Positions 21,309 through 58,182 of a DNA stretch of 64,000 nucleotides are shown here, piece after piece. Numbering within the stretch: the first letter of the stretch is position 1; each line of letters opens with the position of its first letter. The notes beneath the pieces are model-generated. The model worked only from the letters and a program-made list of their open reading frames with translations. It was not told the DNA's origin and did no database searches. Position numbers and translations under genes: made by a program. The stretch is from Methanosarcina sp. 2.H.T.1A.6. Lineage in GTDB: Archaea > Halobacteriota > Methanosarcinia > Methanosarcinales > Methanosarcinaceae. Where the stretch lies: positions 124,001 to 188,000 of the forward strand of contig NZ_JJOY01000049.1 in NCBI RefSeq assembly GCF_000979455.1, read 5' to 3'.

Positions 21309-21563
21309 TTATTCGGCATCAATATTGATCTCAAAGCAACTTGCTATCTGGTTACCCCTCCGGTATGTGCCTGTTATCTTTTGACTTCCCTGGCAAGTTA
21401 CCTGAATGTCCCATACACGGTATCCCCCGCTGCCAGTCTCTTCTTCATCTTCAGGGACAAACCTGTCCCTCATTATCTGTAGGCCGTTACTGGTTGCGAT
21501 ATCCCAGCTGAAGCCGCTGACTGGATTTTCCGGAAACTGGATTGTAAACGGTTTTTTAATCAT
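21309..21563 (-). CDS. Chagasin-like cysteine protease inhibitor (I42), no signal peptide
   Basis: An 84-residue immunoglobulin-like inhibitor of papain-family (C1) cysteine proteases. The three inhibitory loops are recognisable: NPVSGFSW (loop of the NPTTGY type, about 13-20), GSGGYRVW (about 44-51) and YRRGN (about 68-72, in the place of the RPW loop). AGGAGAGG just upstream of ATG 21563 is a strong ribosome-binding site. There is no signal peptide, so the protein should act in the cytoplasm, unlike secreted members. No C1 protease is in the window. It is somewhat short for the family. Confidence 0.82.
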   Translation of the reverse strand: MIKKPFTIQFPENPVSGFSWDIATSNGLQIMRDRFVPEDEEETGSGGYRVWDIQVTCQGSQKITGTYRRGNQIASCFEINIDAE

Positions 21564-23443: not shown

Positions 23444-24427
23444 ATGAGTATATCGAATCTCCCACACATCTCAGAAGAATCAACATCTATTCCGAAAGAA
23501 ATCGCAGGCAGGAGGAATCTTAATACAGGGGTCAGCTTTGAAAAAGCAGACCGGGCCTCTGAAAGAAGCGGTATTCCTATCCTTGAAGTCAAAGACCTCT
23601 GCCATAGATACCCTCACCTTGATTCAAACGCCCTGGATAATATCAACCTGAAAGTATTCAAAGGGGAAAGGGTTGCAGTGCTTGGGGCTAATGGGGCAGG
23701 AAAATCAACTCTTTTTAAGCACCTCAATGGGATCCTTCGTCCTCTTTCCGGAGAAGTTCTGGTAAAAGGAGAAACTGTTACTAAAAAAAATGTCCGTATG
23801 TGCAGGGAGGCAGTGGGGATAGTTTTTCAGGACCCTGATGACCAGGTGCTTGCTCCAAGTGTTGAAGAAGATATAGCTTTTGGGCCGATCAATATGGGCC
23901 TGTCCAGAGAAGAGGTCGAAACCAGAGTTAAAGAAGCCCTTGAAATGGTGGGCCTTACAGGTTTTGAAGATAGAGCGCCGCACCATCTGAGCGGAGGGCA
24001 GAAGAAACTTGTGGCAATTGCAGGCATCCTTGCCATGCGTCCGGAAGTTATTGTGCTTGACGAACCCACAGCAGGGCTTGACCCTTTGAGTTCAGCTCGC
24101 ATCCTGGAACTCATCATGAAAATGAACCGGGAGCTTGGAATTACCCTGCTTCTTTCAACCCATGATGTGGATGTTGTCCCTTATTTTGCTGAAAGGGTTT
24201 TTGTCCTCCATCACGGGAGACTTGAGGCTGACGGAAGTCCGGAGGGGATATTCAATGACCCCGAACTCCTGAAGAAAGCTCACCTTAGACTTCCGAGAGT
24301 AGCTGAAGTATTCGAAATGCTCCGGCAAGAAGGACTCGATGTAAACATACAGATTACAGCCGAAGCGGCCAGAGATGAAATACTGCGGCTCATAAACTCT
24401 GGACAGCAAAACTCGGGGAATGAGTGA
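23444..24427 (+). CDS. cbiO: ECF cobalt/nickel transporter ATPase (CbiO)
   Basis: A 327-residue ABC ATPase that energises an ECF-type divalent metal importer. Walker A is GANGAGKST (about 80), Q-loop FQDPDDQV, signature LSGGQKKLV, Walker B VIVLDEPTAGLD and the H-loop STHDVD. An extension of about 45 residues precedes the usual start (ILEVKDL), with no internal Met, so it seems genuine. It runs into cbiQ 36 bases later. The matching membrane parts CbiM and the small subunit are 3.5 kb downstream, on the same strand. Co versus Ni cannot be told from sequence. Confidence 0.93.
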   Translation: MSISNLPHISEESTSIPKEIAGRRNLNTGVSFEKADRASERSGIPILEVKDLCHRYPHLDSNALDNINLKVFKGERVAVLGANGAGKSTLFKHLNGILRPLSGEVLVKGETVTKKNVRMCREAVGIVFQDPDDQVLAPSVEEDIAFGPINMGLSREEVETRVKEALEMVGLTGFEDRAPHHLSGGQKKLVAIAGILAMRPEVIVLDEPTAGLDPLSSARILELIMKMNRELGITLLLSTHDVDVVPYFAERVFVLHHGRLEADGSPEGIFNDPELLKKAHLRLPRVAEVFEMLRQEGLDVNIQITAEAARDEILRLINSGQQNSGNE

Positions 24428-24463
24428 AAGCCGGAAAGAAGGCTCCTTACAGGAGATTATATT

Positions 24464-25270
24464 ATGGTAACTCTCACGGATATCGAACGCGAATCCTATA
24501 AAAACAGTCCCATACACAGGCTTGACCCCCGGGTCAAATTACTCTTTGCGCTCGCGATAATCATTTATGTAGTTAGCCTGCCCCGGATTCACGAAAAAAA
24601 CATGATTCACCTTTTTGCCATAGAAGTTTATTTGCTGCTTCTTGTGCTTGTTTCCGGGCTGGATTTAAGATATTTTTTCCTTCGCATTGTTGCGATTTTA
24701 CCTTTCGGACTCGGAATTGCCCTTATCCAGCCTTTCCTGAGACCTTCCTTCATTGAAAATTATACTCTTTACCCATTTGACCTGCCTTTAGGGCTAAGTA
24801 TAACATACGAGGGACTTGCTTTTGGGAGTACATTGCTTGCGAAATTTCTGGTCTGTATAACAGCCATCGTCCTGCTATCTTCCACTACACGGCTGAGAGA
24901 CATGGTTTCAGCAGCAGATCGGATGGGCATTCCAAGGGAATTTACTTTGCTCCTGAGCATGATGGTGCGTTATCTCTTTCTGTTCTGGGCCGTCCTCAAA
25001 AGGATAAGAATCGCACAGCAGACTAGGCTCTTTGATATCTGGAACAAAGATGTACCGAGGAGATGGGCCATCGAGCAGGTAGGTAACAGTATGAGCGCAA
25101 TTTTCATACGCTCCTACGAGCAGGGAGAAAGGACCTATATCAGTATGCTTTGCAGAGGCTATGGAAGAGGGTATGAAAAAGCATATTATCGGACAAAAAT
25201 AAGGATTCCGGATATCTTTTTTTTGCTCCTGAGCGCATGTTGCATATTATATATCCATCTTTATATCTGA
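24464..25270 (+). CDS. cbiQ: ECF cobalt/nickel transporter T-component (CbiQ)
   Basis: A 268-residue membrane protein that couples the ATPase to the metal-binding subunit. It has several hydrophobic helices (about 31-52, 60-80, 85-105, 130-150, 245-268) and the conserved RG motif region near the end (MLCRGYGRGYEK) used to contact CbiO. AGGAG at about 24450 precedes ATG. Second gene of the cbiOQ unit. It is convergent with the NAS-like pair. Confidence 0.9.
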   Translation: MVTLTDIERESYKNSPIHRLDPRVKLLFALAIIIYVVSLPRIHEKNMIHLFAIEVYLLLLVLVSGLDLRYFFLRIVAILPFGLGIALIQPFLRPSFIENYTLYPFDLPLGLSITYEGLAFGSTLLAKFLVCITAIVLLSSTTRLRDMVSAADRMGIPREFTLLLSMMVRYLFLFWAVLKRIRIAQQTRLFDIWNKDVPRRWAIEQVGNSMSAIFIRSYEQGERTYISMLCRGYGRGYEKAYYRTKIRIPDIFFLLLSACCILYIHLYI

Positions 25271-25344
25271 AAGATCTGCTGCCTGAAAAGAGGCTAGAGT
25301 TGTATCGTTTTTGAAACTCTTTTTCTGCAGATCTCCAGAGGTTT

Positions 25345-26166
25345 TCATCTTTTTTTCAGAAATACAACCGTATTATTAACTGGAGGTTCCGGCTGAACCC
25401 TGAGATATTCTTCAAATCCTGAAGGCAGCTCGAAGAGGGAACTATCGTCCAGAACTCTCCGAAGACCCTTTTCGTAGAGGCGGTAGGAGACTTTGCTCCC
25501 CTCTGGAATGACTTTTGCAAGGTGTTCGAATACCTCATTTTTGGGTTCAGCCTGGGCAGCGATCATGTAAAGGTTGCAGCTGATTTTAAGGGGCAGGATG
25601 AAGTGGTTTCCTTCTATTATCTTGATGCGTTCGGAAAGACCGAGGCGGGCAATTACCTCTCGGGAGAGGTTTGCCCTTTTTCCATCCTGCTCAATTCCTA
25701 TTCCGGAAAGGCCGTATTCGCTGCAGAGCACTATTAGACTCAGGGGGAGAGGGCCGCTGCCAAGAAAAAGAACACAGTCTTTGGGTTCCAGGCAGGAACC
25801 TGTATATTCGGTCCTGGCAAGTTGCAGGTAGTTCGGGTAAAATGTAAAATTCCGGAGAGTTTTCCACGGATTAGGGCTCTCAAGAAGGCTTTTTGCTTTT
25901 TCAATCTCAAGTTTCAGGTTATATAAAAACCGAAATCGAGATATCGCATCCATCAGATCATCAAAATCCGGGCTTTTAAGGATTGCATCAGTAGACTTTT
26001 CATTTACATTTAGGGCTGCAAGTTCATCCAGCCTTATAAATATGGAATGCAGTTCTTCAGAGGAGCTTTCCAGAATCTCTTTCTCTCCAAGATCATTTAC
26101 CATAACCGAAATCTGCCAAAGTTCGGCAATTAAGGGTGCGGCATCGATTTTCGGGATGTTATTCAC
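25345..26166 (-). CDS. Nicotianamine synthase-like protein (copy B)
   Basis: A 273-residue protein of the nicotianamine synthase (NAS) family, which makes nicotianamine-type chelators from S-adenosylmethionine. The SAM-binding motif is LGSGPLPLSLIVL (about 134-146), followed by the acidic GIGIEQD. The C-terminus has the NAS pattern YRLYEKGLRRVLDD...PSGFEEYLRVQP...VNNTVVFLKK. It overlaps the end of the upstream NAS-like gene by 8 bases, so the two are translationally coupled. Whether it makes nicotianamine, thermonicotianamine or a related product is not visible. The partner is only moderately similar, so the pair may have split roles. Confidence 0.8.
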   Translation of the reverse strand: MNNIPKIDAAPLIAELWQISVMVNDLGEKEILESSSEELHSIFIRLDELAALNVNEKSTDAILKSPDFDDLMDAISRFRFLYNLKLEIEKAKSLLESPNPWKTLRNFTFYPNYLQLARTEYTGSCLEPKDCVLFLGSGPLPLSLIVLCSEYGLSGIGIEQDGKRANLSREVIARLGLSERIKIIEGNHFILPLKISCNLYMIAAQAEPKNEVFEHLAKVIPEGSKVSYRLYEKGLRRVLDDSSLFELPSGFEEYLRVQPEPPVNNTVVFLKKR

Positions 26167-27061
26167 ACTCCATGAAGACCAGGGTGTTGTTTACCTTGCC
26201 AGAAGGGTAGATTTCAGTTATTTTTCGAAAACCAGTGGTCTGGTCCGGTTGGACTGGCCAGTAGAGCAACTGCCTCATTCCGCTATAGTTACGGTAGCAC
26301 ACCGAGGTTGGATTTTCAGGTTCTGACTTTCGATTTTTTATAATCGAGTGGAGGTTCCTAAAGATACGCTGTTTGGGTTCAGCGAGCCCTGCTACAAGCA
26401 CAGAGTCCCAGTCGAGTTCTGCAAGTGTATTTTCATCTCCCTCGACAATACTGATTTCTTTTTCGAGGCCAAAGTGCTTTACACAACTTTTTGCCAGTAC
26501 CACTGCGTTGGGATCCTTATCTACGCCGATGCAGCGGATGCCGTATAGTTTACTCAAAATTAGCAGGGTAACAGGAAGGGGGCCGCAGCCTATAAAAGCT
26601 AGCACTTCAATTTTGGGGGAATTCTGGACATGGGTTTTAATCATATCTTCGTATCTGGAATACAGGGGAAAAGACTTCAGCATTTCCCAGGGTTCTTTGC
26701 AGTCCAGAATTTTTCGTGCAAGATGGGTCTCGTGCAGGCTGAAAAAATGGGTGTAACTGGTGTAGACAGCAGGAAGTAAGGATCTGATCAACGGGTCCCT
26801 GAGTAAGGCCTGACAGAGATCTTCAGCAACATCCCGATGCCCAAGTTCATCCAGTTCGGAGAAGATTTCATAAAGGTCGGGAAGATTCGCCTCTGCCTTT
26901 GTACTTAAATCCAGATCTTTAATATTGCTGTAAAAATGCAATATGTGAGACCTTATGTCGTATAATTGAGGCTCATATTCCTGAAATTGGAATGGAAAAT
27001 TCCTGTCTTCAGCACTCAGTAAGCTGTTCATGAGATTAGATCCCTCGTTATTTCTCTTCAA
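26159..27061 (-). CDS. Nicotianamine synthase-like protein (copy A)
   Basis: A 300-residue NAS-family protein. SAM site IGCGPLPVTLLILSKLYG (about 157-174) with IGVDKDPNAVVLAK. The C-terminal NAS pattern is present (VCYRNYSGMRQLLYWPV...TTGFRKITEIYP...VNNTLVFMECE). The archaeal NAS of Methanothermobacter, which makes thermonicotianamine, is the best studied relative. It is the first gene of the minus-strand pair and lies between the cbiOQ and cbiM halves of a Co/Ni transporter. A separate promoter is likely, since 270 AT-rich bases precede it. Confidence 0.8.
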   Translation of the reverse strand: MKRNNEGSNLMNSLLSAEDRNFPFQFQEYEPQLYDIRSHILHFYSNIKDLDLSTKAEANLPDLYEIFSELDELGHRDVAEDLCQALLRDPLIRSLLPAVYTSYTHFFSLHETHLARKILDCKEPWEMLKSFPLYSRYEDMIKTHVQNSPKIEVLAFIGCGPLPVTLLILSKLYGIRCIGVDKDPNAVVLAKSCVKHFGLEKEISIVEGDENTLAELDWDSVLVAGLAEPKQRIFRNLHSIIKNRKSEPENPTSVCYRNYSGMRQLLYWPVQPDQTTGFRKITEIYPSGKVNNTLVFMECE

Positions 27062-27334
27062 TGAATTACAAAAAATATTATATGTATCTGTTTTATAGGC
27101 AGTTTTTGAGATTCACATATAAAGTTTTCTATAATTTTCGACAAGTAAGTATGATAAATAGTTTTATTGTATTATGTATAAAATATGAGGAAAACTGTAA
27201 GAAATCTTAATAAAATCTATTAATATAATATGAAAATAAAAAAAAAGAGATTGTTAATGGGGTGACAATAAAAATGTTGGGGCATTTTAGGGAAATTTTT
27301 GACTAAAAAATGCCGGGGCCAGAGAGGCTTAACC

Positions 27335-28101
27335 TCACGTTTTCTGCCCTGATATCAAAAAAATGGAGTTATCCCCCAGAAGCCTCTGCGAGAATGAGTA
27401 CCTATTTTTTTGAAACTCCTGAACCTCCCGGAGAGGATTGATTGTAGTGTTCACAAATCCGGTTTCTGAAAAGAGAAGGGAAGCATTTTCCGGACTCATT
27501 TTCTCATAGAGGGGAAGGGAATTCCTTATTGGACCGTAACAGTCCTTGAAAATAAGATTGTACTGGTTCTTTTTTGCAAACCTTGCAGCAAACTCGGAAA
27601 GCATTCTTTTGATACATTTGTCTGGTCGGGGATCAAACCAGTTGCCATCGATGGCAAAAATCATGCCTTCCGGTTTAAGGACTCTTTTCCATTCGCGAAT
27701 CGCACAGGAAGGTTCCGGGAGGGTCCAGAGCAGGTATTTACTCACAACCAGGTCGAAATGACCGTCCTCAAAAGGCAGATTTTCTGCATCTCCATGGAAT
27801 AAATCAATTTCAAGACCCATGTTATCTGAATTACTCCTCGCTTTCTCTAACATGCCTGCGGAAATATCTATGCCTGTTACCTCATGCCCCATCTCGGCAA
27901 AAAGGAGTGCGAGAAAACCAGTACCTGTCCCCACATCCAATACTTTTAAACGCTTGCCGGAAACCAGGGAATTTTCAAATATTTGTTTCCAGACAGTGCG
28001 TTCTTCTTCATCAAAGCCATTTACCCCATTTTTGTAAGTGGAAGACCTGAAATTCCAGTAATTGGCAATAACTTTCTTGCAGTCTATAAATACTCCTCCA
28101 T
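27335..28101 (-). CDS. SAM-dependent methyltransferase, 5' end apparently frameshifted
   Basis: A class I (UbiE-type) methyltransferase: VLDVGTGTGF (SAM motif I), GIDIS (motif II) and LVVSKYLLW. The conserved body reads through to YWNFRSSTYKNGV about 60 residues upstream of a possible TTG start at 27940. Upstream of that the frame stays open to a TAG at 28124-28126 with no ATG, GTG or TTG. An ATG at 28101 in another frame opens MEEYL and then stops, as if one base were lost. So the true start is unresolved. The substrate is unknown; neighbours are the NAS-like genes and cbiM. Confidence 0.7.
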
Positions 28102-28753
28102 ATAATACAAATCTGGCAATATACTAATGTACTTTTTTTTCACAACAATTATTACTAAAGATTTAAATCTGATGAGTATATATTACTTAATACCTTAAAA
28201 AAGCTATCCTGCAAGAATCAAAATATGTTGAAAATGGGGGCTATGTAAAATTAACACCAACTTTTCTTCTGCGAATATATATTCGACTTGGTGAGTGATA
28301 TGGGGGTATTTAATTTGATTAAAAAATAAAAACGCAGGTATTGAAGATGACTTCCATATATAATTATCGAAAAAAATAATACCAAAATGTATATATGTAA
28401 TACTGAATTATCTAAGATATACGGAAAATCTTTAAAGAATTTATTCCAAAATGAATAACGGCAACAGTAATAATAGATTAATAAACTGATATTTATTCAC
28501 ATTAAATAATTCTACAAATTTTGTTTTATGGGATTTTTATCCTCATCTGAAAAATATTCTTAAAAATATTTTTTGGATGTACGCCGTGAACAAGGAGGAG
28601 CCTTTGTAATCTCTTCTGAGTTTTTGATCTATTACGGTCACAAGATACTGAAAACAAATCTAAATTTTGATGATTCCTGAATATTTTATAAAGTCTCTCA
28701 AAAGTCTCAAACGGATAAATTAAAATCTAAAATATAGAAAGAGGAAATGAAAA
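28102..28753. other. Long AT-rich spacer upstream of cbiM
   Basis: About 650 bases. It contains the perfect palindrome CGAATATATATTCG (28272-28285) and a TATA-like ATTTTATAAAG (about 28684-28694). I saw no cobalamin-riboswitch signature and no convincing frame. Confidence 0.5.
28272..28285. promoter_or_regulatory. Perfect 14-bp palindrome upstream of cbiM
   Basis: CGAATATATATTCG reads the same on both strands, in a low-complexity AT-rich background. It could be the operator of a metal-responsive or other repressor, but it is far (about 470 bases) from cbiM and about 170 bases from the divergent methyltransferase. Confidence 0.3.
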
Positions 28754-29419
28754 ATGCATATACCTGATTCATTTATACCTTTAGGCCAGGCAGTTATTTA
28801 CTGGGTTATTGCTCTTCCTTTCATTATAATGTCAATGAGATGGGCACGAAAAGAGCTTGACGAGATGAAAGTACCGATTCTCGCTGCCCTTGCAGCAGGA
28901 ATCTTTGCTATCCAGGCAATGAATATCCCTATAGGAATGGGGACTAGCGGACACATGGTAGGAGCAGCCCTTGTGGCAATTGTTTTCGGAAGCCCCTGGG
29001 CAGGAGTTCTCGTACTAACGCTTGTGCTGCTCGTGCAGGGTTTTGCCTTTGGTGACGGTGGGATCACCACAATGGGTGCAAACATCCTGAATATGGGCGT
29101 TGTTTCCGGGTTTGTAGGGTATTATACTTATGCTGCCCTTCGCAAGAGTGTGGGCACAAGTATCGCAGCCTTCGGGGGCGCCTGGCTCGGGCTCTTTATC
29201 TCGGCAATGGTCTGTGCTGTTCAGATGTGGCTTGCGGGCACCTTCCCCCTGGTTCCGGGACTTATGGCAATGGGTACCTATCACCTGATAATTGGTTTTA
29301 TTGGTGAGGGACTGATCACTGCAGTTGTAATCACCGCGATTGCAAAATCCCGCCCTGATCTCCTTGAGGATAGTTTCACTGTCAAATCGGATACGTCTAA
29401 GAAGGAGGTTCACGCATGA
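28754..29419 (+). CDS. cbiM: ECF cobalt/nickel transporter substrate-binding subunit (CbiM)
   Basis: A 221-residue membrane protein that captures Co2+ or Ni2+. The N-terminus MHIPDSFI carries the metal-binding His2 that must follow Met, as known for CbiM/NikM. About seven hydrophobic helices follow, with conserved [14 protein letters not shown] and [20 protein letters not shown] upstream (about 28741) supports the ATG. It overlaps the next gene by 4 bases (ATGA). The cbiO/cbiQ partners are 3.5 kb upstream. Confidence 0.93.
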
Positions 29420-29721
29420 GCGGAAACTCTAACCTGAAATTCTTTTATGCTGGAATTGCAATTGCGCTTTTGCTTTCGGTTCTGGCCCCCTTCCTCGCAT
29501 CTCCAGATCCCGATGGGCTTGAAAGTGCAGCAGGTGGCGTTATTGAGGAATCAAAGATGTCTCAACTTGAAGAAATGGAACCTGCAGTAAGTTCTCCAAT
29601 GCCTGACTATTCAATTGAAGGTATGGGAAAAAGTGGAGAAGTTATGGCGATTGCCATAGGGACTATAGCAGTACTGGCAATCAGTTTCGGGTTTGGAAAA
29701 GTGTTCAATAGAAAAGCCTGA
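29416..29721 (+). CDS. Small transporter subunit with PDGLE motif (CbiN/NikN-like)
   Basis: A 101-residue protein with two membrane helices (about 8-27 and 75-95) and a loop that starts SPDPDGLE, the PDGLE signature of small accessory subunits of archaeal Co/Ni ECF transporters. PDGLE proteins are often called nickel-type (NikN-like) rather than true CbiN, which bears on the metal. It overlaps cbiM by ATGA. Confidence 0.85.
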
Positions 29722-34337: not shown

Positions 34338-34433
34338 TCTCAGATCAAGTCTCAGATCAAGTTTCAGATCAAGTCTCAGATCGAGTATCAGATCAAGTCT
34401 CAGATCGAGTATCAGATCAAGTCTCAGATCGAG
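34338..34433. repeat. Eight tandem 12-bp repeats carrying GATC
   Basis: Units TCTCAGATCAAG, with variants TATCAGATCAAG, TTTCAGATCAAG and TCTCAGATCGAG, run without gaps for 96 bases. The last units alternate as pairs (24-bp order). Each unit carries one GATC. It lies 46 bases past the stop of the UbiA-like gene, between convergent genes. Confidence 0.9.
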
Positions 34434-34479
34434 TCTTTTATCATAGTTTTTTTATTAAAATCTTTTGTACAGTCAGGTC

Positions 34480-49746: not shown

Positions 49747-49990
49747 AGAGCAAAAATCCCTCAAATTCACCAACTGATATTGATTCTAGATGTTAACAGT
49801 GACATAATAATGCGTTATGTTTATGTAATGTTTACTCTTATCTAATTGTTGCCCATATGTGTGAAATTTATTGATTCTGTTAATGCGATATTCACTTTAA
49901 AGTAATTACTTTTCACTCTTGAGCGATACGTCCAGGCAGGAGAAAGCCACCAGGACTTATTTGCAACTCATAATTTGCGGAGGAAAATAC

Positions 49991-51625
49991 ATGCCAGTAT
50001 TTATTGAAGTAAAAAATCTAACCGTAGATTTCGATGGTCTTAAGGCACTGAAAAACGTAAGTTTAAGCATCAACGAAGGGGAAGTCGTTGGGATTCTGGG
50101 AAAAAGCGGATCCGGGAAAACAATCCTTATGCATGTGTTGCGTGGGACCGAATCTTTTGAGAATATCTCGGGCGAAGTAATTTATCATCTGGCCCGCTGT
50201 GAGAAATGCGGATATATAGAACGTCCAAGCAAAATAGGCCAGAAATGCCCGGTCTGCGGCGAGAGTCTTGAGGCATTCAAAGCTGATTTTATAAAACTTT
50301 CACTTTACGACCCTATAAGAAAGGATATCACCAAGCGCATTGCAATAATGCTCCAGAGAACCTTTGCCCTTTATGGGGATGAAAGAGTTCTGGTAAACGT
50401 CATAAACTCCCTGAATGAAATCGGGTATAAGGGAGAAGACGCCATGAAAAAGGCAGTTGAACTCCTCGAGGAGGTAAACCTGAGCCACCGTATGATGCAC
50501 GTGGCGAGGGAACTTTCCGGGGGGGAAAAACAGCGGGTTGTGCTTGCAAGACAGCTTGTAAGAAATCCATTTCTCCTATTAGCCGACGAGCCTACAGGTA
50601 CCCTTGACCCCATGACTGCAAAGCTGGTTCACGAAGCCATTATAAAGGCTGTTAAGAGCTACAATATGAGCATGGTCCTTACATCCCACTGGCCCGAAGT
50701 AATCGAGAAACTGGCAGATAAGGCAATTCTGCTTGAAAATGGGGAAGTAGTCCAGGAAGGAGACCCACTTGAGGTTTCTGCGATCTTTATGCAAAGTGCA
50801 TCCATGGTCAGGCAGGAAAAGAACGCTCTGGTAGGAGAGCCTATTATCCGCGTAAGGGATCTGACAAAGCGTTATATCTCAGTAGACCGGGGTGTGGTAA
50901 GAGCTGTGGACAAAATCTCTTTTGACGTGATGGAAGGAGAGATTTTCGGCCTTGTCGGGGTAAGCGGAGCAGGCAAGACCACAACCTCGAAAATCCTTAT
51001 GGGAATTTTACCACCAACCTCAGGAGAAGTTGAAGTCCGCGTCGGGGATGGATGGGTGGACATGACAAAATTAGGGGTTGAAAACAAAGGCAGGGCAACG
51101 AAATACATGGGATTCCTGCACCAGGAATATGGGCTTTATACCCACAGCTCCGTAATAGACAATCTTACAGAATCCATTAGCCTGGACCTTCCATTCGAAC
51201 TTGGGGTTCGAAAAGCCATAATTACTCTCAAGGCTGCAGGTTTTGAAGAAAATAAGGCAAAAGCTGTTTTGTCCAAAATGACCAATGAAATGAGTGAAGG
51301 AGAGCGACATAGAATTGCACTTGCGCAGGTCCTTATCAAGGAGCCAAGAATCGTCATTATGGATGAACCAACCGGGACAATGGACCCTATTACCAAGGTA
51401 TCAGTGACAAACTCCATCCTTAAAGCCAGAGAAGAGATTGGAGAAACCTTTGTTGTTGTCTCTCACGACATGGACTTTGTGAATGAGATCTGCGACCGTG
51501 TTGCACTCATGCGCGATGGAAAGATCGTAGCTATAGGGAAACCGGAGAACGTACTCTCCCATCTCACTGAAGAAGAAAGGTTCAAAGCTACAGAAGAAGG
51601 GCTCAAAGCTACAGAAGAAATATAA
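49991..51625 (+). CDS. atwA: Methyl-coenzyme M reductase activation protein A2 (AtwA)
   Basis: A 544-residue tandem ABC ATPase, component A2 of the ATP-dependent activation of MCR, which brings the F430 nickel to Ni(I). Two nucleotide-binding domains: Walker A GKSGSGKT and GVSGAGKT; signatures LSGGEKQRV and MSEGERHRI. The first domain holds a zinc-ribbon insertion (CEKCGY...KCPVCGE, about 58-80). GGAGG (49979-49983) supports ATG 49991 over the longer in-frame ORF. First gene of the mmp cluster. Confidence 0.96.
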   Translation: MPVFIEVKNLTVDFDGLKALKNVSLSINEGEVVGILGKSGSGKTILMHVLRGTESFENISGEVIYHLARCEKCGYIERPSKIGQKCPVCGESLEAFKADFIKLSLYDPIRKDITKRIAIMLQRTFALYGDERVLVNVINSLNEIGYKGEDAMKKAVELLEEVNLSHRMMHVARELSGGEKQRVVLARQLVRNPFLLLADEPTGTLDPMTAKLVHEAIIKAVKSYNMSMVLTSHWPEVIEKLADKAILLENGEVVQEGDPLEVSAIFMQSASMVRQEKNALVGEPIIRVRDLTKRYISVDRGVVRAVDKISFDVMEGEIFGLVGVSGAGKTTTSKILMGILPPTSGEVEVRVGDGWVDMTKLGVENKGRATKYMGFLHQEYGLYTHSSVIDNLTESISLDLPFELGVRKAIITLKAAGFEENKAKAVLSKMTNEMSEGERHRIALAQVLIKEPRIVIMDEPTGTMDPITKVSVTNSILKAREEIGETFVVVSHDMDFVNEICDRVALMRDGKIVAIGKPENVLSHLTEEERFKATEEGLKATEEI

Positions 51626-51666
51626 ATATGCCGCCACCTCTTAACATAGAAAAATACTAAAATGAG

Positions 51667-53244
51667 GTGCCGATTACGAGTAATGAGATCAGCGTAGAGG
51701 TGAACGGGCAAAAATACACTTTGCCTGCAGGCTCTACCCTTGGAGACGCTCTTAAAGTTTCCCGAGCCCCCTATATAGCCGGTACAGCGGTTGGAATTCT
51801 TAAAAAAGCCGCTGAGAAGAGGACGGAGAATGTCACCGAATACGCTATCAAGACACCCAGAGGGGAGCTAAGGATAGAACTCAAAGATCCGGAATCATCC
51901 TCTGGAAAACTATGGGCTGAACATTATAAAGAGTATGAAGGTAAAACCATCCACTGGGCAAGTCCTGAAGCTCTGGCTTTCGGACCTTTTGAAGCCGACA
52001 TAAAGCCTTTGCGTGAGACCGGGAGCTTTGAAGCGTTTGATGTTGTATTCGGGGCAGGAGGATTTGACTCCCGTAATACTCATCTGATCCTGTCAAGAAA
52101 AAGGCATGCCGCTGAGTATGGATCTCCCGAAGATGGCGTTTTTGCAACAATTGTAACCGGGAGAAATCTTATTTTCAGGCTTTCGAGAGAAGACTCCATC
52201 CTGAGCATAGAGCCTATTATAGAATGGGAACAACTTGCAGAAAAAACCTGTACTACCGATCTTTCTACCCTTCTTGAAAATCATGACAGTGTATTTACTT
52301 ATTTTGAGGTCGAGCTTTCCAGAAACTCCCCTAAGGGAGCTGAACACTTCTATGCCCTGACCCGCGAGGGAACTCTTAACGTAGATGTGATAACCAGCTC
52401 ATTTATCTCAGATGATAGCCTGAAAGAAGAACCTGTTCCTTATGAAAATTTTGAGCCGAGAAGAGAAGGTGCCATCTCTGTCAGGACAGTCGGATACGGG
52501 GCCGGTAGGATATATATTTCCAGAGAGGAACGGCCTTCAAGCCTTGTGCATTCGGTCGTCGGGCAGGTAACAAAAGGCCTTGAGCTTATCAAACTCGCAG
52601 AAAAGGGACAGAAGCTGTCAGTAGAAAGCCTTCCTCCCCAGATAGTCCTGTTGGGACACAGCTTTGAAGAGGTCGAGCCCGTACTTTCCTCTATAGGGGT
52701 GGAACTGGTAAAAGATGGGTACACAGGAAAGGACGCAGTAATTGTCAGGCAGGACCCGCCAACAACTCTGGAAATTTTCGGAGAAGCGAAAGTGACTGCT
52801 TATGCGGTATCCAGGGAAAAACTCATTGAAGTTGAGCTTTACCCGGAGATAGCCCCAAAATCGGTAGACTTTTTCCGTCATTCTCTTGAACTCAAGACAA
52901 AAACCGTCGGAAAACTTCCTGTTTATATGGTCTATGAGAACACTTACCTTTTCAAAACAGAAAAGGAAGTGGTGAAATACAAAGAAATCCTTCCTGAAAA
53001 CACGCCAAGTGGCAGGGTACTGGCCGGGGAAATTGGAATCACAAATCAGGCCGCAAAAAGGATGGGGACCATAGGAGCGAGACTTGTAGATGATGATCTC
53101 TTCGGTCCTACCGGAGAAAAGTTTTCCTCAACGAATATTATCGGTCGGATAGTCGAGCCTGAGAGACTTAAGGGCATCGAAGAAGGAGATGCGATATATA
53201 TAATTGAAGCTGCACGCAGGAGAACTGATGATAAGGGGAACTGA
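51667..53244 (+). CDS. mmp3: Methanogenesis marker protein 3 (Mmp3)
   Basis: A 525-residue methanogen-only protein (UPF0288/marker 3). The first about 50 residues (ISVEVNGQKYTLPAGSTLGDAL) look like a beta-grasp fold. Later parts include a cyclophilin-like region, for example IEVELYPEIAPKSVDFF (about 385-401). In the ATP-driven MCR activation complex described from Methanococcus, Mmp3 is one reported part. The GTG start at 51667 follows atwA by 41 bases. The role is inferred from family and neighbours. Confidence 0.93.
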   Translation: MPITSNEISVEVNGQKYTLPAGSTLGDALKVSRAPYIAGTAVGILKKAAEKRTENVTEYAIKTPRGELRIELKDPESSSGKLWAEHYKEYEGKTIHWASPEALAFGPFEADIKPLRETGSFEAFDVVFGAGGFDSRNTHLILSRKRHAAEYGSPEDGVFATIVTGRNLIFRLSREDSILSIEPIIEWEQLAEKTCTTDLSTLLENHDSVFTYFEVELSRNSPKGAEHFYALTREGTLNVDVITSSFISDDSLKEEPVPYENFEPRREGAISVRTVGYGAGRIYISREERPSSLVHSVVGQVTKGLELIKLAEKGQKLSVESLPPQIVLLGHSFEEVEPVLSSIGVELVKDGYTGKDAVIVRQDPPTTLEIFGEAKVTAYAVSREKLIEVELYPEIAPKSVDFFRHSLELKTKTVGKLPVYMVYENTYLFKTEKEVVKYKEILPENTPSGRVLAGEIGITNQAAKRMGTIGARLVDDDLFGPTGEKFSSTNIIGRIVEPERLKGIEEGDAIYIIEAARRRTDDKGN

Positions 53245-53409
53245 GAATCCTAATTATTGATAATTATTCAATTATATAAGTTGTATTTAATTAATTAAAT
53301 AATGCATAATAAACTATTACATAACCGAAAATAATGTTGATACTTGAGCGGATTCACATGTTTGGATTTATCGCAGGTGAAGTCTCCCGAAGTTGAGGAG
53401 AGACAGAAG

Positions 53410-53853
53410 ATGACAGAAATAAAACAAAATGAGATTACAAAGTACATTGTAATCAGTTCGGATAAAGTGCTGCCTGCGGATGCAGCCATGAAGATTTATG
53501 AATCAGAGTTTCCGGTTACGGTAAAGGAGACCTGCTTTGGGCTTATTGTAACAGGATCAAAGGAGGATGTCCTTTCAGTGGTAGAAAAGATTCAGCAGAT
53601 GGATAAAAACCACATTTTTATAAAAGATAGGGGATTTCCTGCAGGTGATGAGAGGCGCTGTCGGGCAAGCCGGGGCGGAGGCCCGAGGCCTGGATTCCAT
53701 TTCCTGAGGGAAGAAGTGAAGATGCTCCCTGCCATAGGGGCTGCACTTGATGAACTGGAAGCAAAAGAGTCCGTAAAAGAAAAACACAAAGAGAAAAGCA
53801 GGCTTAAAGTTTCTGATTTGGAAAAAATTATTGAAGAGGAGCTTGCGAGGTGA
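53410..53853 (+). CDS. mmp6: Methanogenesis marker protein 6 (Mmp6)
   Basis: A 147-residue methanogen marker protein. A compact N-terminal alpha/beta part (about 8-75) is followed by a basic, Gly-rich loop (RGFPAGDERRCRASRGGGPR) and a Lys/Glu-rich helical tail. An upstream TTG at 53344 extends the frame, but GAGGAGAG (53395-53402) points to ATG 53410 and the family is about this length. Precedes mmp5. Function beyond its place in the cluster is unknown. Confidence 0.9.
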   Translation: MTEIKQNEITKYIVISSDKVLPADAAMKIYESEFPVTVKETCFGLIVTGSKEDVLSVVEKIQQMDKNHIFIKDRGFPAGDERRCRASRGGGPRPGFHFLREEVKMLPAIGAALDELEAKESVKEKHKEKSRLKVSDLEKIIEEELAR

Positions 53854-53859
53854 ATTTTT

Positions 53860-54363
53860 TTGGCAAAGGTTTTCATTTACCCTGTAAACAGTCTTATTTT
53901 ATCTGACCTGGTTGAGCGCTTCGAGCATAAACCCCTTACAATGATGAACCAGGTAAGAGAGAAAGTTACAAACATCAGCCTGGATTCTCCCCCTATTAAT
54001 ATTACTCCCGAAGATCCTAAAATCGGGCTTCGATATGCTGCGGTTGAAGTGCCGGCTGGAGTAAGGGGAAGAATGTCTCTAATAGGTCCCCTTATAGAAG
54101 AAACAGAAGCTGCAATCATAGTTGAAAACCCCCCTGCAAACTTTGGCTGCGTGGGCTGTAACCGCACAAACGAACTGATGAAATATCTGGTGCGCGATAA
54201 AGGGGTCCCTGTTCTGGAAGTAAAATATCCGGAATCCGACGAGGATGCCCGCGATTTCGTGAACAAAATCGCAGCATTTCTGGAGTCATTGCCTGAAGAA
54301 AAGCCGGACGAAGATGAAAAGCCAGTAGATGAAGAACCGGCAGAAAAGGAGGCAGAGGAATGA
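53860..54363 (+). CDS. mmp5: Methanogenesis marker protein 5 (Mmp5)
   Basis: A 167-residue methanogen marker protein. Central motif [20 protein letters not shown] (CVGC pair) suits metal or cluster binding. The tail (about 145-167) is a strongly acidic Glu/Asp/Pro run. It starts with TTG at 53860, with GAGGTGA at 53846-53852 before it, and overlaps mmp15 by 4 bases. The function is not known. Confidence 0.9.
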
Positions 54364-55607
54364 GTGCCGAAGAATCCGGACTTGTAAAGATTGCTCTGGT
54401 TTCCTGCGGCTCTGAGTATGCCGGGGTTCAGCCCGAATTTGAAGCTGCCGCAGCCAGAGTAGATGCAAAATTCATTTATCCCGAAATTGACATTGCATCC
54501 ATAGATACCATAGGCAAAGATTTCGGGCTTGAAGTTGCAAGCGGAGACCTCAGGCTCATGATGGCACGGGCAAAGGCCGTTGTTGAAGGTACAACAAAAG
54601 TAGATGGGGTCTTTATTACTACCTGCTTCCGCTGTGCAGAAGGAGCTATTGTTCGAAACGAGGTCAGAAGGTACATCCATAAGCACTCCGAGATCCCTGT
54701 AATCAGCTATTCATTTACCGAACGAACAAGTGCAGGCACCCTGCTCACCCGTCTTGAAGCCCTGACCACAATTGCCAGGCGCAGGCATCTCCTTGCCAGG
54801 GAAGTCCAGACCGGGCTGACTGCGGGAATTGATTCGGGATCGACAACCACAAAAGCTGTGGTTATGAGAGATAACAAGATCATAGGTAAAGGCTGGGTGC
54901 CTACAACAAAAGTCCTTGAAAGTGCTGACGAAGCATACTCCCAGGCCCTTAAAGAAGCCGGAGTTGCCAGAGAAGAAGTCCAGGCTCTGGGCACTACAGG
55001 ATACGGACGTTTTCTTATAGGGAACCATTTTAACGCCCAGCTGATCCAGGAAGAAATTACCGTCAACTCAAAGGGAGCTGTCTACCTTGCAGGCAGGCAA
55101 AAGGGCTCTGCGACGGTCATTGATATCGGAGGTATGGACAACAAGGCGATCTCTGTTGAAGACGGAATCCCTGGCATGTTCACAATGGGGGGGATCTGCG
55201 CAGGAGCTTCGGGACGTTTCTTTGAAATGATCTCCAAGCGTCTCGGTGTGGAGATTACGGAACTCGGGGCACTTGCAGTCAAGGGTATGCAGGAAAATGT
55301 AAACATGAACAGCTACTGCATAGTTTTCGGGATACAGTCCCTTGTAAACTCCCTTGCCAAAGGAGCTACTCCTGAAGATGTCGCAGCTGCAGCCTGCTAC
55401 AGTGTGGTAGAACAGATCTACGAGCAGCAACTGCAGGAAGTGGACGTAAAAGAGCCATTGATCCTTGTAGGAGGTTCTTCCCTTATCGAAGGAGTCCCGA
55501 AAGCTCTCGGAGACCTTCTCAAGATTGAGGTTCTTGTACCGGAAAACTCCCACATGATAGGGGCAGTAGGGGCAGCACTTCTTGCTTCCGGCTATGTGGA
55601 GGAGTGA
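54360..55607 (+). CDS. mmp15: Methanogenesis marker protein 15 (BadF/HgdC-type ATPase)
   Basis: A 415-residue protein. The first part (about 5-130, ending [15 protein letters not shown]) resembles the HgdB-type two-iron-sulfur dehydratase subunits, the rest (about 157-415: [35 protein letters not shown]) is an ASKHA ATPase of the activator type (BadF/BcrA/HgdC). Those activators transfer low-potential electrons with ATP, so an electron-feeding role in MCR activation is attractive but inferred. Overlaps mmp5 (ATGA). Confidence 0.93.
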
Positions 55608-55614
55608 GGTCAAA

Positions 55615-56214
55615 ATGGATTCGCTTGAGATCTTTGTTGTCGAGTCAGCAATTGATTCGGAGCAGGAGTTTTACAGGAAGATTATCGAGGACAACCTTGC
55701 AAGTCTCAAGCTTGCTCCTGCAATAGGACGGATCAAGGTAGTGCTAAGACCTGAAGATTCTCTCTTCCAGATGGCAATCATTCTCAGGGATGTTGGCACC
55801 AGGGTTACGACAATCGATATTGCTGATGTGGAAGCAAAACCTGTCGCCGGAGAAGTAATGATTTCTATCAAAAAAGAGCAGTACATTCCGGAACTGCTCG
55901 GGAAACTCTGGGAGCGCTACGGAAAAGCGAACATCAGCCAGCCGGACCGCTGGACTGTAGCCATAACCACGGATAAACCCGCTGAAGAGGCAGCTTTTAT
56001 TAAAGAAATGATGGTTGCAGACCCCAGGCACAGGCTTCACGAAAATCTCGTGGATTTCGCGGTCCGCGCCACTCCTGAGGGTTTCAGGGTTCGCTACCAT
56101 CTATATAAAGGCAATCGATTTGTTTTTGTGGCATCTGAGGAAGCATTGAAACATGAGTGGATCGAAGAAGCAGGAGCAATGCTCGAAGAACTGACGGAAG
56201 GAGGGAAAAAGTAA
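55615..56214 (+). CDS. mmp17: Methanogenesis marker protein 17 (Mmp17)
   Basis: A 199-residue methanogen-only protein, starting at ATG 55615 after GGAGGAGTGAGG. Parts include DVGTRVTTIDIADVEAKP and LHENLVDFAVRATPEGFRVRY. No enzymatic motif is recognised. Reported as a part of the MCR activation complex; its neighbours mmp15 and mmp7 agree. Start of mmp7 follows at once. Confidence 0.93.
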   Translation: MDSLEIFVVESAIDSEQEFYRKIIEDNLASLKLAPAIGRIKVVLRPEDSLFQMAIILRDVGTRVTTIDIADVEAKPVAGEVMISIKKEQYIPELLGKLWERYGKANISQPDRWTVAITTDKPAEEAAFIKEMMVADPRHRLHENLVDFAVRATPEGFRVRYHLYKGNRFVFVASEEALKHEWIEEAGAMLEELTEGGKK

Positions 56215-56215
56215 G

Positions 56216-57151
56216 ATGGTTGTACTCCTACCCTATCTTTACACCGGCGGAGTCCATAAACACGGGCTTTTAATTGAACTGATGGAAGATCTCGGAGGCT
56301 ACATAATTCAGAAAGTAGTTACCGGGACCGAAGTCAATCTTATAATGCTTATCCCTGAAAAAGATATTGATATTGTAAAAAAGCTCTCGCATGAACTGCT
56401 TGGAGTCCTGATGGAAGCTCCTCTTACAGGGGTAGAGATTGCAGTTGTCTCCCCTACACTTGCCTCACACCACCTGCCACATTCGGCCTGCGATATAGCA
56501 GAATACCTTCGCCATCCCGGAGCTAATACAAATATGATAGGGCTTGCAAGGGGAATGGGGCGCAGGGTCTCCCTGTCCATGGACTATGAACGAAAGCTCA
56601 TCAACGAGCACGATATTGCGGTTTTCACCTTCGGATCTTTCAGTGACTGTATTACGAAAAAGAAGCCGAAACTCTTTGAAGGCATTGAGATACCTATTGT
56701 GGTTACCGGAGGGCCTGCTGAACTGAAAACCGAAGATGTCCCCGGAGCAGACCTCTACATTGGAAATATAGGAAGGGTTTCTCACAGGTTAAGAAGAACA
56801 GAGGAGATTAATGCCCTCGACAATCTGAACGAAGGGGTTTCAAAGATTGCTTCTGAGATTCGCCAGCAGCAGGCAAAAGACCCGCTTGCGGTACTTCCTG
56901 CGCGAGTCATGAAGGAGATCGAAAACCAGGTTCCGGAAATCCGCAGGGTGCTCTCTCCTGCTCCTCTCACCCTTCAGCTTGACGGACTCAGGGTCAAACT
57001 TCCATACGATGAATTCCATGAGAAAATTGAAAAGCTGGAGTTTGATGAAGGAGTCGTCCTTTCCGAGCTTGCAAATATTTCCAGGTCAAAAATGAAAAAT
57101 TATATATTGATAAAAATCAAATCTAAGTCTGACGTTGGTTTTGCAATTTGA
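56216..57151 (+). CDS. mmp7: Methanogenesis marker protein 7 (Mmp7)
   Basis: A 311-residue methanogen-only protein. Conserved parts include GGVHKHGLLIELMEDLGGY at the start, and IGLARGMGRRVSLSMDYE and FTFGSFSDCI in the middle. It is one of the marker proteins reported in the MCR activation complex, where large iron-sulfur clusters were seen. Last gene of the mmp block, beginning 1 base after mmp17 ends. Confidence 0.93.
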   Translation: MVVLLPYLYTGGVHKHGLLIELMEDLGGYIIQKVVTGTEVNLIMLIPEKDIDIVKKLSHELLGVLMEAPLTGVEIAVVSPTLASHHLPHSACDIAEYLRHPGANTNMIGLARGMGRRVSLSMDYERKLINEHDIAVFTFGSFSDCITKKKPKLFEGIEIPIVVTGGPAELKTEDVPGADLYIGNIGRVSHRLRRTEEINALDNLNEGVSKIASEIRQQQAKDPLAVLPARVMKEIENQVPEIRRVLSPAPLTLQLDGLRVKLPYDEFHEKIEKLEFDEGVVLSELANISRSKMKNYILIKIKSKSDVGFAI

Positions 57152-58074: not shown

Positions 58075-58182
58075 TACTAATTCTAATAATCATACTAATA
58101 ATAATCATACTAATAATAATCATACTAATAATAATTCTAATAATCATACTAATAATAATATTAATAATCTTAATAATAATTG
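58075..58182. repeat. Degenerate AATAAT/CATACT tandem array
   Basis: About 100 bases of AATAAT and CATACT words repeating with a period of about 15, e.g. TAATAATAATCATAC three times. It ends about 15 bases before the next start codon (58195), so it is likely part of that gene's promoter/leader and could change length by slippage. Confidence 0.85.

Follow-up and report, generated by a model that had tools for sequence, protein, structure and literature searches.

A pair of nicotianamine synthase-family genes inside a split, probably nickel-carrying ECF importer locus of Methanosarcina suggests an undescribed nickel-handling pathway

Among chelators made with nicotianamine synthase (NAS)-like enzymes, staphylopine and pseudopaline are exported and then recaptured, and MtNAS, the thermonicotianamine synthase of Methanothermobacter, has been described as acting on glutamate. 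Energy-coupling factor (ECF) importers are regarded as transporters of free ions, the bare ion being bound through the N-terminal Met-His of the M component. In methanogens and anaerobic methanotrophs (ANME), cofactor F430, carbon monoxide dehydrogenase and hydrogenases create a large demand for nickel. The nickel in their habitats is often trapped in sulfides (PMC10617489). A survey of opine-like zincophores began from the dehydrogenase CntM and was, by its own statement, blind to systems that lack it (PMC7438024), and a paper on Methanobrevibacter notes that a NAS gene is present and proposes a role in metal uptake. NikKLMQO has been identified as a nickel transporter (PMC5904137), and NikKMLQO was not detected in archaea in a 2009 survey (PMC2667541). 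Here, we examine two overlapping NAS-family genes, nasA and nasB, located within an ECF importer locus of Methanosarcina sp. 2.H.T.1A.6. The window, the whole stretch of DNA that was analysed, is 64,000 nucleotides long (positions 124,001 to 188,000 of contig NZ_JJOY01000049.1). In a literature search restricted to open papers, no description was found of NAS in connection with Methanosarcina or ANME, or of the route by which nickel reaches CfbA, the sirohydrochlorin nickelochelatase of F430 synthesis, inside methanogen or ANME cells.

A preliminary description of the region had placed cbiOQ, two overlapping NAS genes, a methyltransferase (MT) gene and cbiM with a PDGLE subunit between positions 23444 and 29721, and profile matches recovered all of them. 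The importer is split into two halves (O-Q and M-PDGLE) around nasB, nasA and the MT gene, with an overlap of 8 bp between nasA and nasB. The features are as follows.

23444-24427, forward strand: cbiO/nikO, ATPase of the ECF importer (PF00005 and the cbiO subfamily model TIGR01166, both above cut-off)
24464-25270, forward strand: cbiQ/nikQ, T component of the ECF importer (PF02361; TIGR02454, 139 bits, cut-off 111.8)
25345-26166, reverse strand: nasB, NAS family (B clade), GTG start (PF03059, 110.3 bits; fold match 3fpe; tree)
26159-27031, reverse strand: nasA, NAS family (A clade), probable ATG start at 27031 (PF03059, 71.6 bits; fold match 3fpe; tree; orthologues of 290 aa)
27335-28087, reverse strand: MT, class I S-adenosylmethionine (SAM)-dependent methyltransferase, apparent ATA start (PF08241, 98.7 bits; start-codon comparison)
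28754-29419, forward strand: cbiM/nikM, metal-binding S component of the ECF importer (PF01891, 191 bits; closest PDB chains 4m58/4m5b)
29416-29721, forward strand: PDGLE small subunit, NikN-like and not CbiN (PF13190, 65.7 bits)

The scores of both NasA and NasB exceed the 27.1-bit cut-off of the Pfam NAS family, and MtNAS was the top match in a sequence search of the PDB (E = 7.5e-41 for NasA and 2.9e-31 for NasB). Neither reached the level of CntL in the NF033601 model (32.0 and 30.4 bits against a cut-off of 350). Their predicted structures (pLDDT 89.8 for NasA and 90.8 for NasB) gave TM scores to 3fpe of 0.79 and 0.84, respectively, and in a fold search with each the best match was MtNAS, followed by CntL. 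Among 86 aligned relatives, Glu81 of MtNAS was conserved in 84 of 85 and Tyr107 in all 86, and NasA and NasB have both residues, which are the proposed catalytic pair of MtNAS (PMC10491745). A tree, built as a quick search and containing some long branches, separated an A clade of 30 rows (SH-aLRT 95) from a B clade of 73 rows (SH-aLRT 100). The C-terminal motifs also differ, MtNAS-like GMR and PSGKVNNT in NasA and KGLRR and PEPPVNNT in NasB, and this difference suggests that the two proteins have different acceptor specificities. The ratios of non-synonymous to synonymous substitution rates in comparisons with other Methanosarcina were 0.18-0.25 for nasA, 0.22-0.32 for nasB, 0.12-0.16 for the MT gene and 0.07-0.09 for cbiM, and these coding regions are therefore under purifying selection. 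The consensus of the NasA alignment, in which most members are bacterial, includes a His/Cys-rich N-terminal stretch (HDFLGCCKDC, as in NasA of L145) that possibly binds metal; the NasA in the window lacks a stretch of this type.

The M, Q and O components of the importer are all present, and its N subunit matches PF13190 only and not CbiN (PF02553). The sole CbiN in the same genome (C51:64976) is next to the other CbiM (C51:65263), and CbiN is likewise next to the other CbiM in other Methanosarcina. The M protein in the window is nearer to PDB chains 4m58 and 4m5b, which we take to be the nickel S component NikM2, than to the CbiM chain 5x3x. Published comparative genomics classes CbiN as cobalt-specific and NikN or NikK/NikL as nickel-specific (PMC2667541). 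Because CbiN is absent here and kept at the other CbiM, and because the closest chains are 4m58/4m5b, the importer in the window probably carries nickel.

Synteny between NAS-like and cbi genes in other genera, the first check proposed in the preliminary description, was found. Across 37 archaeal genomes with 49 NAS loci in all, 21 loci had CbiM/NikM no more than 10 kb away, where 0.63 would be expected from genome density, in a comparison that ignores shared ancestry and in which contig ends hide some neighbours. When the genes lying up to 8 kb from 104 non-redundant NAS loci were clustered without bias, ECF components came top, namely the ATPase (40, a count that may include other ATP-binding cassette (ABC) ATPases), NikQ (30) and NikM (28). 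These were followed by MT (22 loci, median 149 bp), NikL (17), NikK (15), a bacterial fold-III pyridoxal phosphate (PLP) enzyme (13, median 21 bp) and CfbA (6, median 79 bp). Nine other Methanosarcina genomes contain the A-B pair, mostly next to at least one of the orthologous ECF halves, although at L043 and L049 its neighbour is another ECF set, paralogous to that one, and a scan of named genomes found the pair in Methanotrichaceae too. One to three B-type NAS genes are present in ANME-1, ANME-2, Methanococcoides and Methanolobus, often adjoining a NikK-NikL-NikM-NikQ-NikO operon. The NAS-linked importers hence differ by lineage, M-PDGLE-Q-O in Methanosarcina and the non-orthologous NikKLMQO in the other groups. 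Many of the loci are from metagenome bins, in which ANME and sulfate-reducer contigs could be mis-binned, and the ANME group labels were taken from matching named loci and from group codes. Methanosarcina, Methanococcoides, Methanolobus and several sulfate reducers are represented by isolates, the case of ANME and CfbA by none.

The clustering of NAS genes with importers held for the nasAB pair and for the B-type genes of ANME but not for a third, separate NAS of Methanosarcina, a single B-clade gene with CbiM nearby in none of seven cases. In many Methanosarcina (L082-L098, e.g. L092:9659-10516) this single gene is beside a MerR/GyrI-like regulator, in some also beside a MauG-type cytochrome c peroxidase, and in none is a metal importer nearby. 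In one genome (G101), the ancestral ECF locus (L181:9594-10280) retains the ECF halves and broken remains of the MT gene without NAS, and an intact MT-nasA-nasB set is found beside another ECF importer (L043:11250-12152), an apparent relocation or replacement.

The pathway had been pictured as archaeal, a restriction that did not survive the scan of named genomes. Many Desulfobacterota have the A-B pair, among them the cultured Desulfospira joergensenii, strain NaphS2 and Desulfonema magnum, as does Candidatus Tritonobacter; the two genes overlap by 4 bp in almost every bacterial pair. In Desulfospira joergensenii (L145) the genes nikM-nikL-nikQ-nikO-nasA-nasB and one for a PLP enzyme follow each other on one strand with short gaps. 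The PLP enzyme beside the bacterial pair matches Ala_racemase_N and D-ser_dehydrat, its closest structures are D-threonine aldolases, and it may supply or process a D-amino acid. Neither a CntM-type dehydrogenase nor a CntK-type racemase was seen at the loci read. The reported absence of an opine dehydrogenase is in keeping with this and with the lack of any match to Staph_opine_DH (PF10100) in 14 genomes, a result to be read with the fact that no control genome matched either.

Further nickel genes accompany NAS in ANME. Some genomes of ANME-2 and ANME-1 encode a CbiX-type protein between or beside the NAS genes, and the two of these that were scanned scored 130.5 and 152.5 bits against a cut-off of 120 for the F430_CfbA equivalog. 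Genomes with an intact NAS-linked CfbA carry a second CfbA elsewhere, and the other genomes tested have one above the cut-off. The linked copies are 68-70% (ANME-2) or 70-74% (ANME-1) identical to the other CfbA of the same genome and 37-38% identical across lineages, and in a CfbA tree they group with their own lineage at 100/100. CfbA therefore underwent two separate duplications, after each of which a copy came to lie beside NAS, and a single inherited origin of the arrangement is ruled out. The linked copies retain both active-site histidines, His9 and His75 in the M. jannaschii enzyme (PMC11301274). The window itself contains, about 23 kb from nasAB and outside the operon, the following cluster.

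49919-57151, forward strand: methyl-coenzyme M reductase activation cluster (A2, mmp3, mmp6, mmp5, mmp15, mmp17, mmp7; NCBIfam)

Mmp7, Mmp17, Mmp3 and A2 are members of the F430-activating complex (PMC12176620), and NAS has parts of this cluster as neighbours at two ANME loci (L054 and L062), a proximity that is weak but consistent with a link to F430. A giant frame of more than 3,800 aa in another genome (G133; L203:2-11560, reverse strand; G133:C1:4284000-4298500) has repeated CbiX chelatase-like domains that alternate with GLUG motifs.

The MT protein (METHYLTRANSFERASE) probably belongs to the NAS/importer system. Its homologues beside NAS genes in Methanosarcina, Methanococcoides, ANME-2 and ANME-1 are 39-83% identical to it, and a PDB search returned generic methyltransferases only. 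Other Methanosarcinaceae also have close homologues without NAS, flanked by a NikA-like binding protein on one side and NikB-type permeases on the other (L183-L187), and two of these permeases (L185 and L186) score 379 and 360 against the NCBIfam nickel-permease cut-off of 350. Because MT homologues occur in such Nik-type ABC operons without NAS, the tie of MT to nickel or metallophore transport appears broader than its tie to NAS. A strict partnership with NAS is ruled out by these operons, by a CbiOQ-MT-CbiM arrangement at L182 and by nas loci without MT. The insertion of MT into Nik-type ABC operons recurs across Methanosarcinaceae (L186:7772-13674, L187, L185, L183 and L184).

Gene content, catalytic residues, fold and purifying selection have all been computed, as has a linkage to nickel genes that recurs in unrelated arrangements, and together they lend genomic support to the earlier idea of a metal-handling NAS pathway with an ECF importer: nickel/cobalt importers recur beside NAS, they are non-orthologous and other nickel genes accompany them. 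NasA and NasB would be NAS-family 3-amino-3-carboxypropyl (aminobutyrate) transferases that build a nicotianamine-like chelator from SAM, and the neighbouring MT may methylate it. NasB alone seems sufficient in ANME, and NasA would for this reason add a further or alternative aminobutyrate step. Ni2+ would enter through the NikMNQO-type ECF importer, be bound and buffered by the ligand in the cytoplasm, and then go chiefly to CfbA, for the synthesis of F430. We infer the structure of the product, nickel as the main metal, use in the cytoplasm rather than after secretion, and the hand-over to CfbA. That a nicotianamine-like nickel ligand made by NasA and NasB, possibly methylated, buffers and delivers ECF-imported nickel with F430 as the main sink is the reading we favour, at slightly better than even chances.

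Several observations weigh against it. The counts of NAS-importer adjacency are not phylogenetically independent, and linkage to an importer is by itself silent on where the chelator acts, as free ions are the presumed cargo of ECF importers. Some Methanosarcina pairs are damaged, with two short frames resembling insertion-element transposases separating nasA from nasB in one genome (L050:9533-10629, G147) and frame breaks in nasA at L102, and the pathway is therefore dispensable. MT is missing from the nas locus in several Methanosarcina (L045, L046 and L048), and the linkage to CfbA is confined to some ANME and is not found in Methanosarcina. A cobQ-like B12 gene beside NAS in ANME-1 leaves room for cobalt, and the TonB and SBP_bac_5 contexts of some bacterial pairs point to a secreted chelator in those sulfate reducers.

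The chief rival is such a secreted nickelophore, in which the NAS product leaves the cell, captures external nickel and is then taken back, with the importer or the extracellular NikK/NikL taking up or stripping the complex. A TonB receptor (by Pfam) and a peptide/nickel-type SBP_bac_5 importer are beside the pair at L143, a TonB receptor (likewise by Pfam) is found with NikL at L155, and L179 has a similar-looking receptor recognised from sequence only; the MT homologues in NikA-like/NikBCDE operons of Methanosarcinaceae would also fit. However, an exporter and a binding protein are absent from the Methanosarcina locus, and the recurrent linkage is to ECF importers, which bind bare ions, and to the cytoplasmic CfbA, so that we regard secretion as unlikely. 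Less likely still is a chelator serving cobalt uptake. Methanosarcina also needs cobalt in quantity, for corrinoids. The cobQ-like gene is near NAS at three ANME-1 loci (L117, L121 and L124), the NCBIfam names of the M and PDGLE subunits say 'cobalt', and CfbA is also able to insert cobalt (PMC11301274). Against this, the importer in the window has no CbiN, which in this genome sits with the other CbiM, and NAS loci elsewhere have NikK/NikL-type importers and duplicated CfbA. Nickel and cobalt had both been put forward as the metals, and nickel is the better supported of the two; cobalt for the locus is improbable. A non-metal role for the NAS proteins (e.g. another aminobutyrate transfer from SAM) in a merely historical neighbourhood would suit the third Methanosarcina NAS and its different neighbours, but is very improbable given that NAS is found again and again beside importers of different kinds, in both archaea and bacteria, and next to CfbA copies that were duplicated independently.

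Conserved elements upstream of the genes were also found, two of which are candidate regulatory sites.

27268-27288, reverse strand: conserved element AAAATGCCNNRACATTTTTAT ahead of nasA, candidate regulatory site (kept in most Methanosarcina pairs)
28380-28409, forward strand: conserved element TACCAAAATGTATATATGTAATACT upstream of cbiM, candidate operator (alignment of cbiM upstream regions)

The first has a single exact copy in the window, which is also the only one in the genome. TGTAAYAC elements precede both cbiO and cbiM, and nasA is preceded by a different element; shared regulation of the nas and importer genes was dropped, as no common operator was found among the conserved upstream elements. 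An Rfam scan of the window found no riboswitch or other RNA. The start of nasA is most likely the ATG at 27031 and not the TTG at 27061, because the orthologues are 290 aa long. The MT frame (28087-27335) extends beyond the open reading frame called when starts are restricted to ATG, GTG and TTG. Its putative ATA start (28085-28087, reverse strand) has a GGAGG site ahead of it, the same codon is ATG, ATA or ATC in orthologues, and in G133 an in-frame stop is just upstream of the ATC. A small gene for a chagasin-family (Inhibitor_I42) protease inhibitor near the locus (21309-21563, reverse strand) is conserved in several Methanosarcina, and the window has short tandem repeat arrays at 34338-34436 and 58083-58180 (12/24-bp and 12/15/24-bp units, respectively).

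Overall, the gene contexts suggest an undescribed small-molecule nickel-handling pathway in a methanogen of the Methanosarcina type, in many related methane consumers and in several sulfate reducers. Only tentatively do we extend this to a dehydrogenase-free NAS-family pathway of methanogens, anaerobic methanotrophs and sulfate reducers that makes a dedicated nickel carrier delivering to CfbA; if true, this would to our knowledge be the first small-molecule nickel chaperone of methane metabolism, and the known range of nicotianamine-type chelators would be widened beyond CntM-based surveys. With a conserved gene set tying chelator synthesis to nickel import and to a duplicated nickel chelatase, the question can be tested in Methanosarcina, which is genetically tractable.

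The staphylopine and pseudopaline systems (CntKLM with CntABCDF) resemble the locus in having a NAS-like aminobutyrate transferase beside metal transport genes, and the sulfate reducers add a fold-III PLP amino-acid enzyme and, at one locus, a TonB receptor with a peptide/nickel-type importer. An importer of the CntABCDF type is absent from the window locus, which has an ECF importer instead, and is found at a single bacterial locus (L143). MtNAS shares family, fold and the Glu81/Tyr107 pair with NasA and NasB and its C-terminal GMR...PSGKVNNT with NasA, whereas NasB has PEPPVNNT. It is a single enzyme, and in the window there are two diverged paralogues that overlap head to tail beside a nickel-type importer. 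The scanned NAS-linked CfbA copies of ANME pass the equivalog cut-off and keep the active-site histidines, as expected of CfbA, and differ in being second, independently duplicated copies located beside NAS. The nickel ECF importers NikMNQO and NikKMLQO share M, Q and O components and small subunits with the set in the window, which differs from them in being joined to genes for chelator synthesis.

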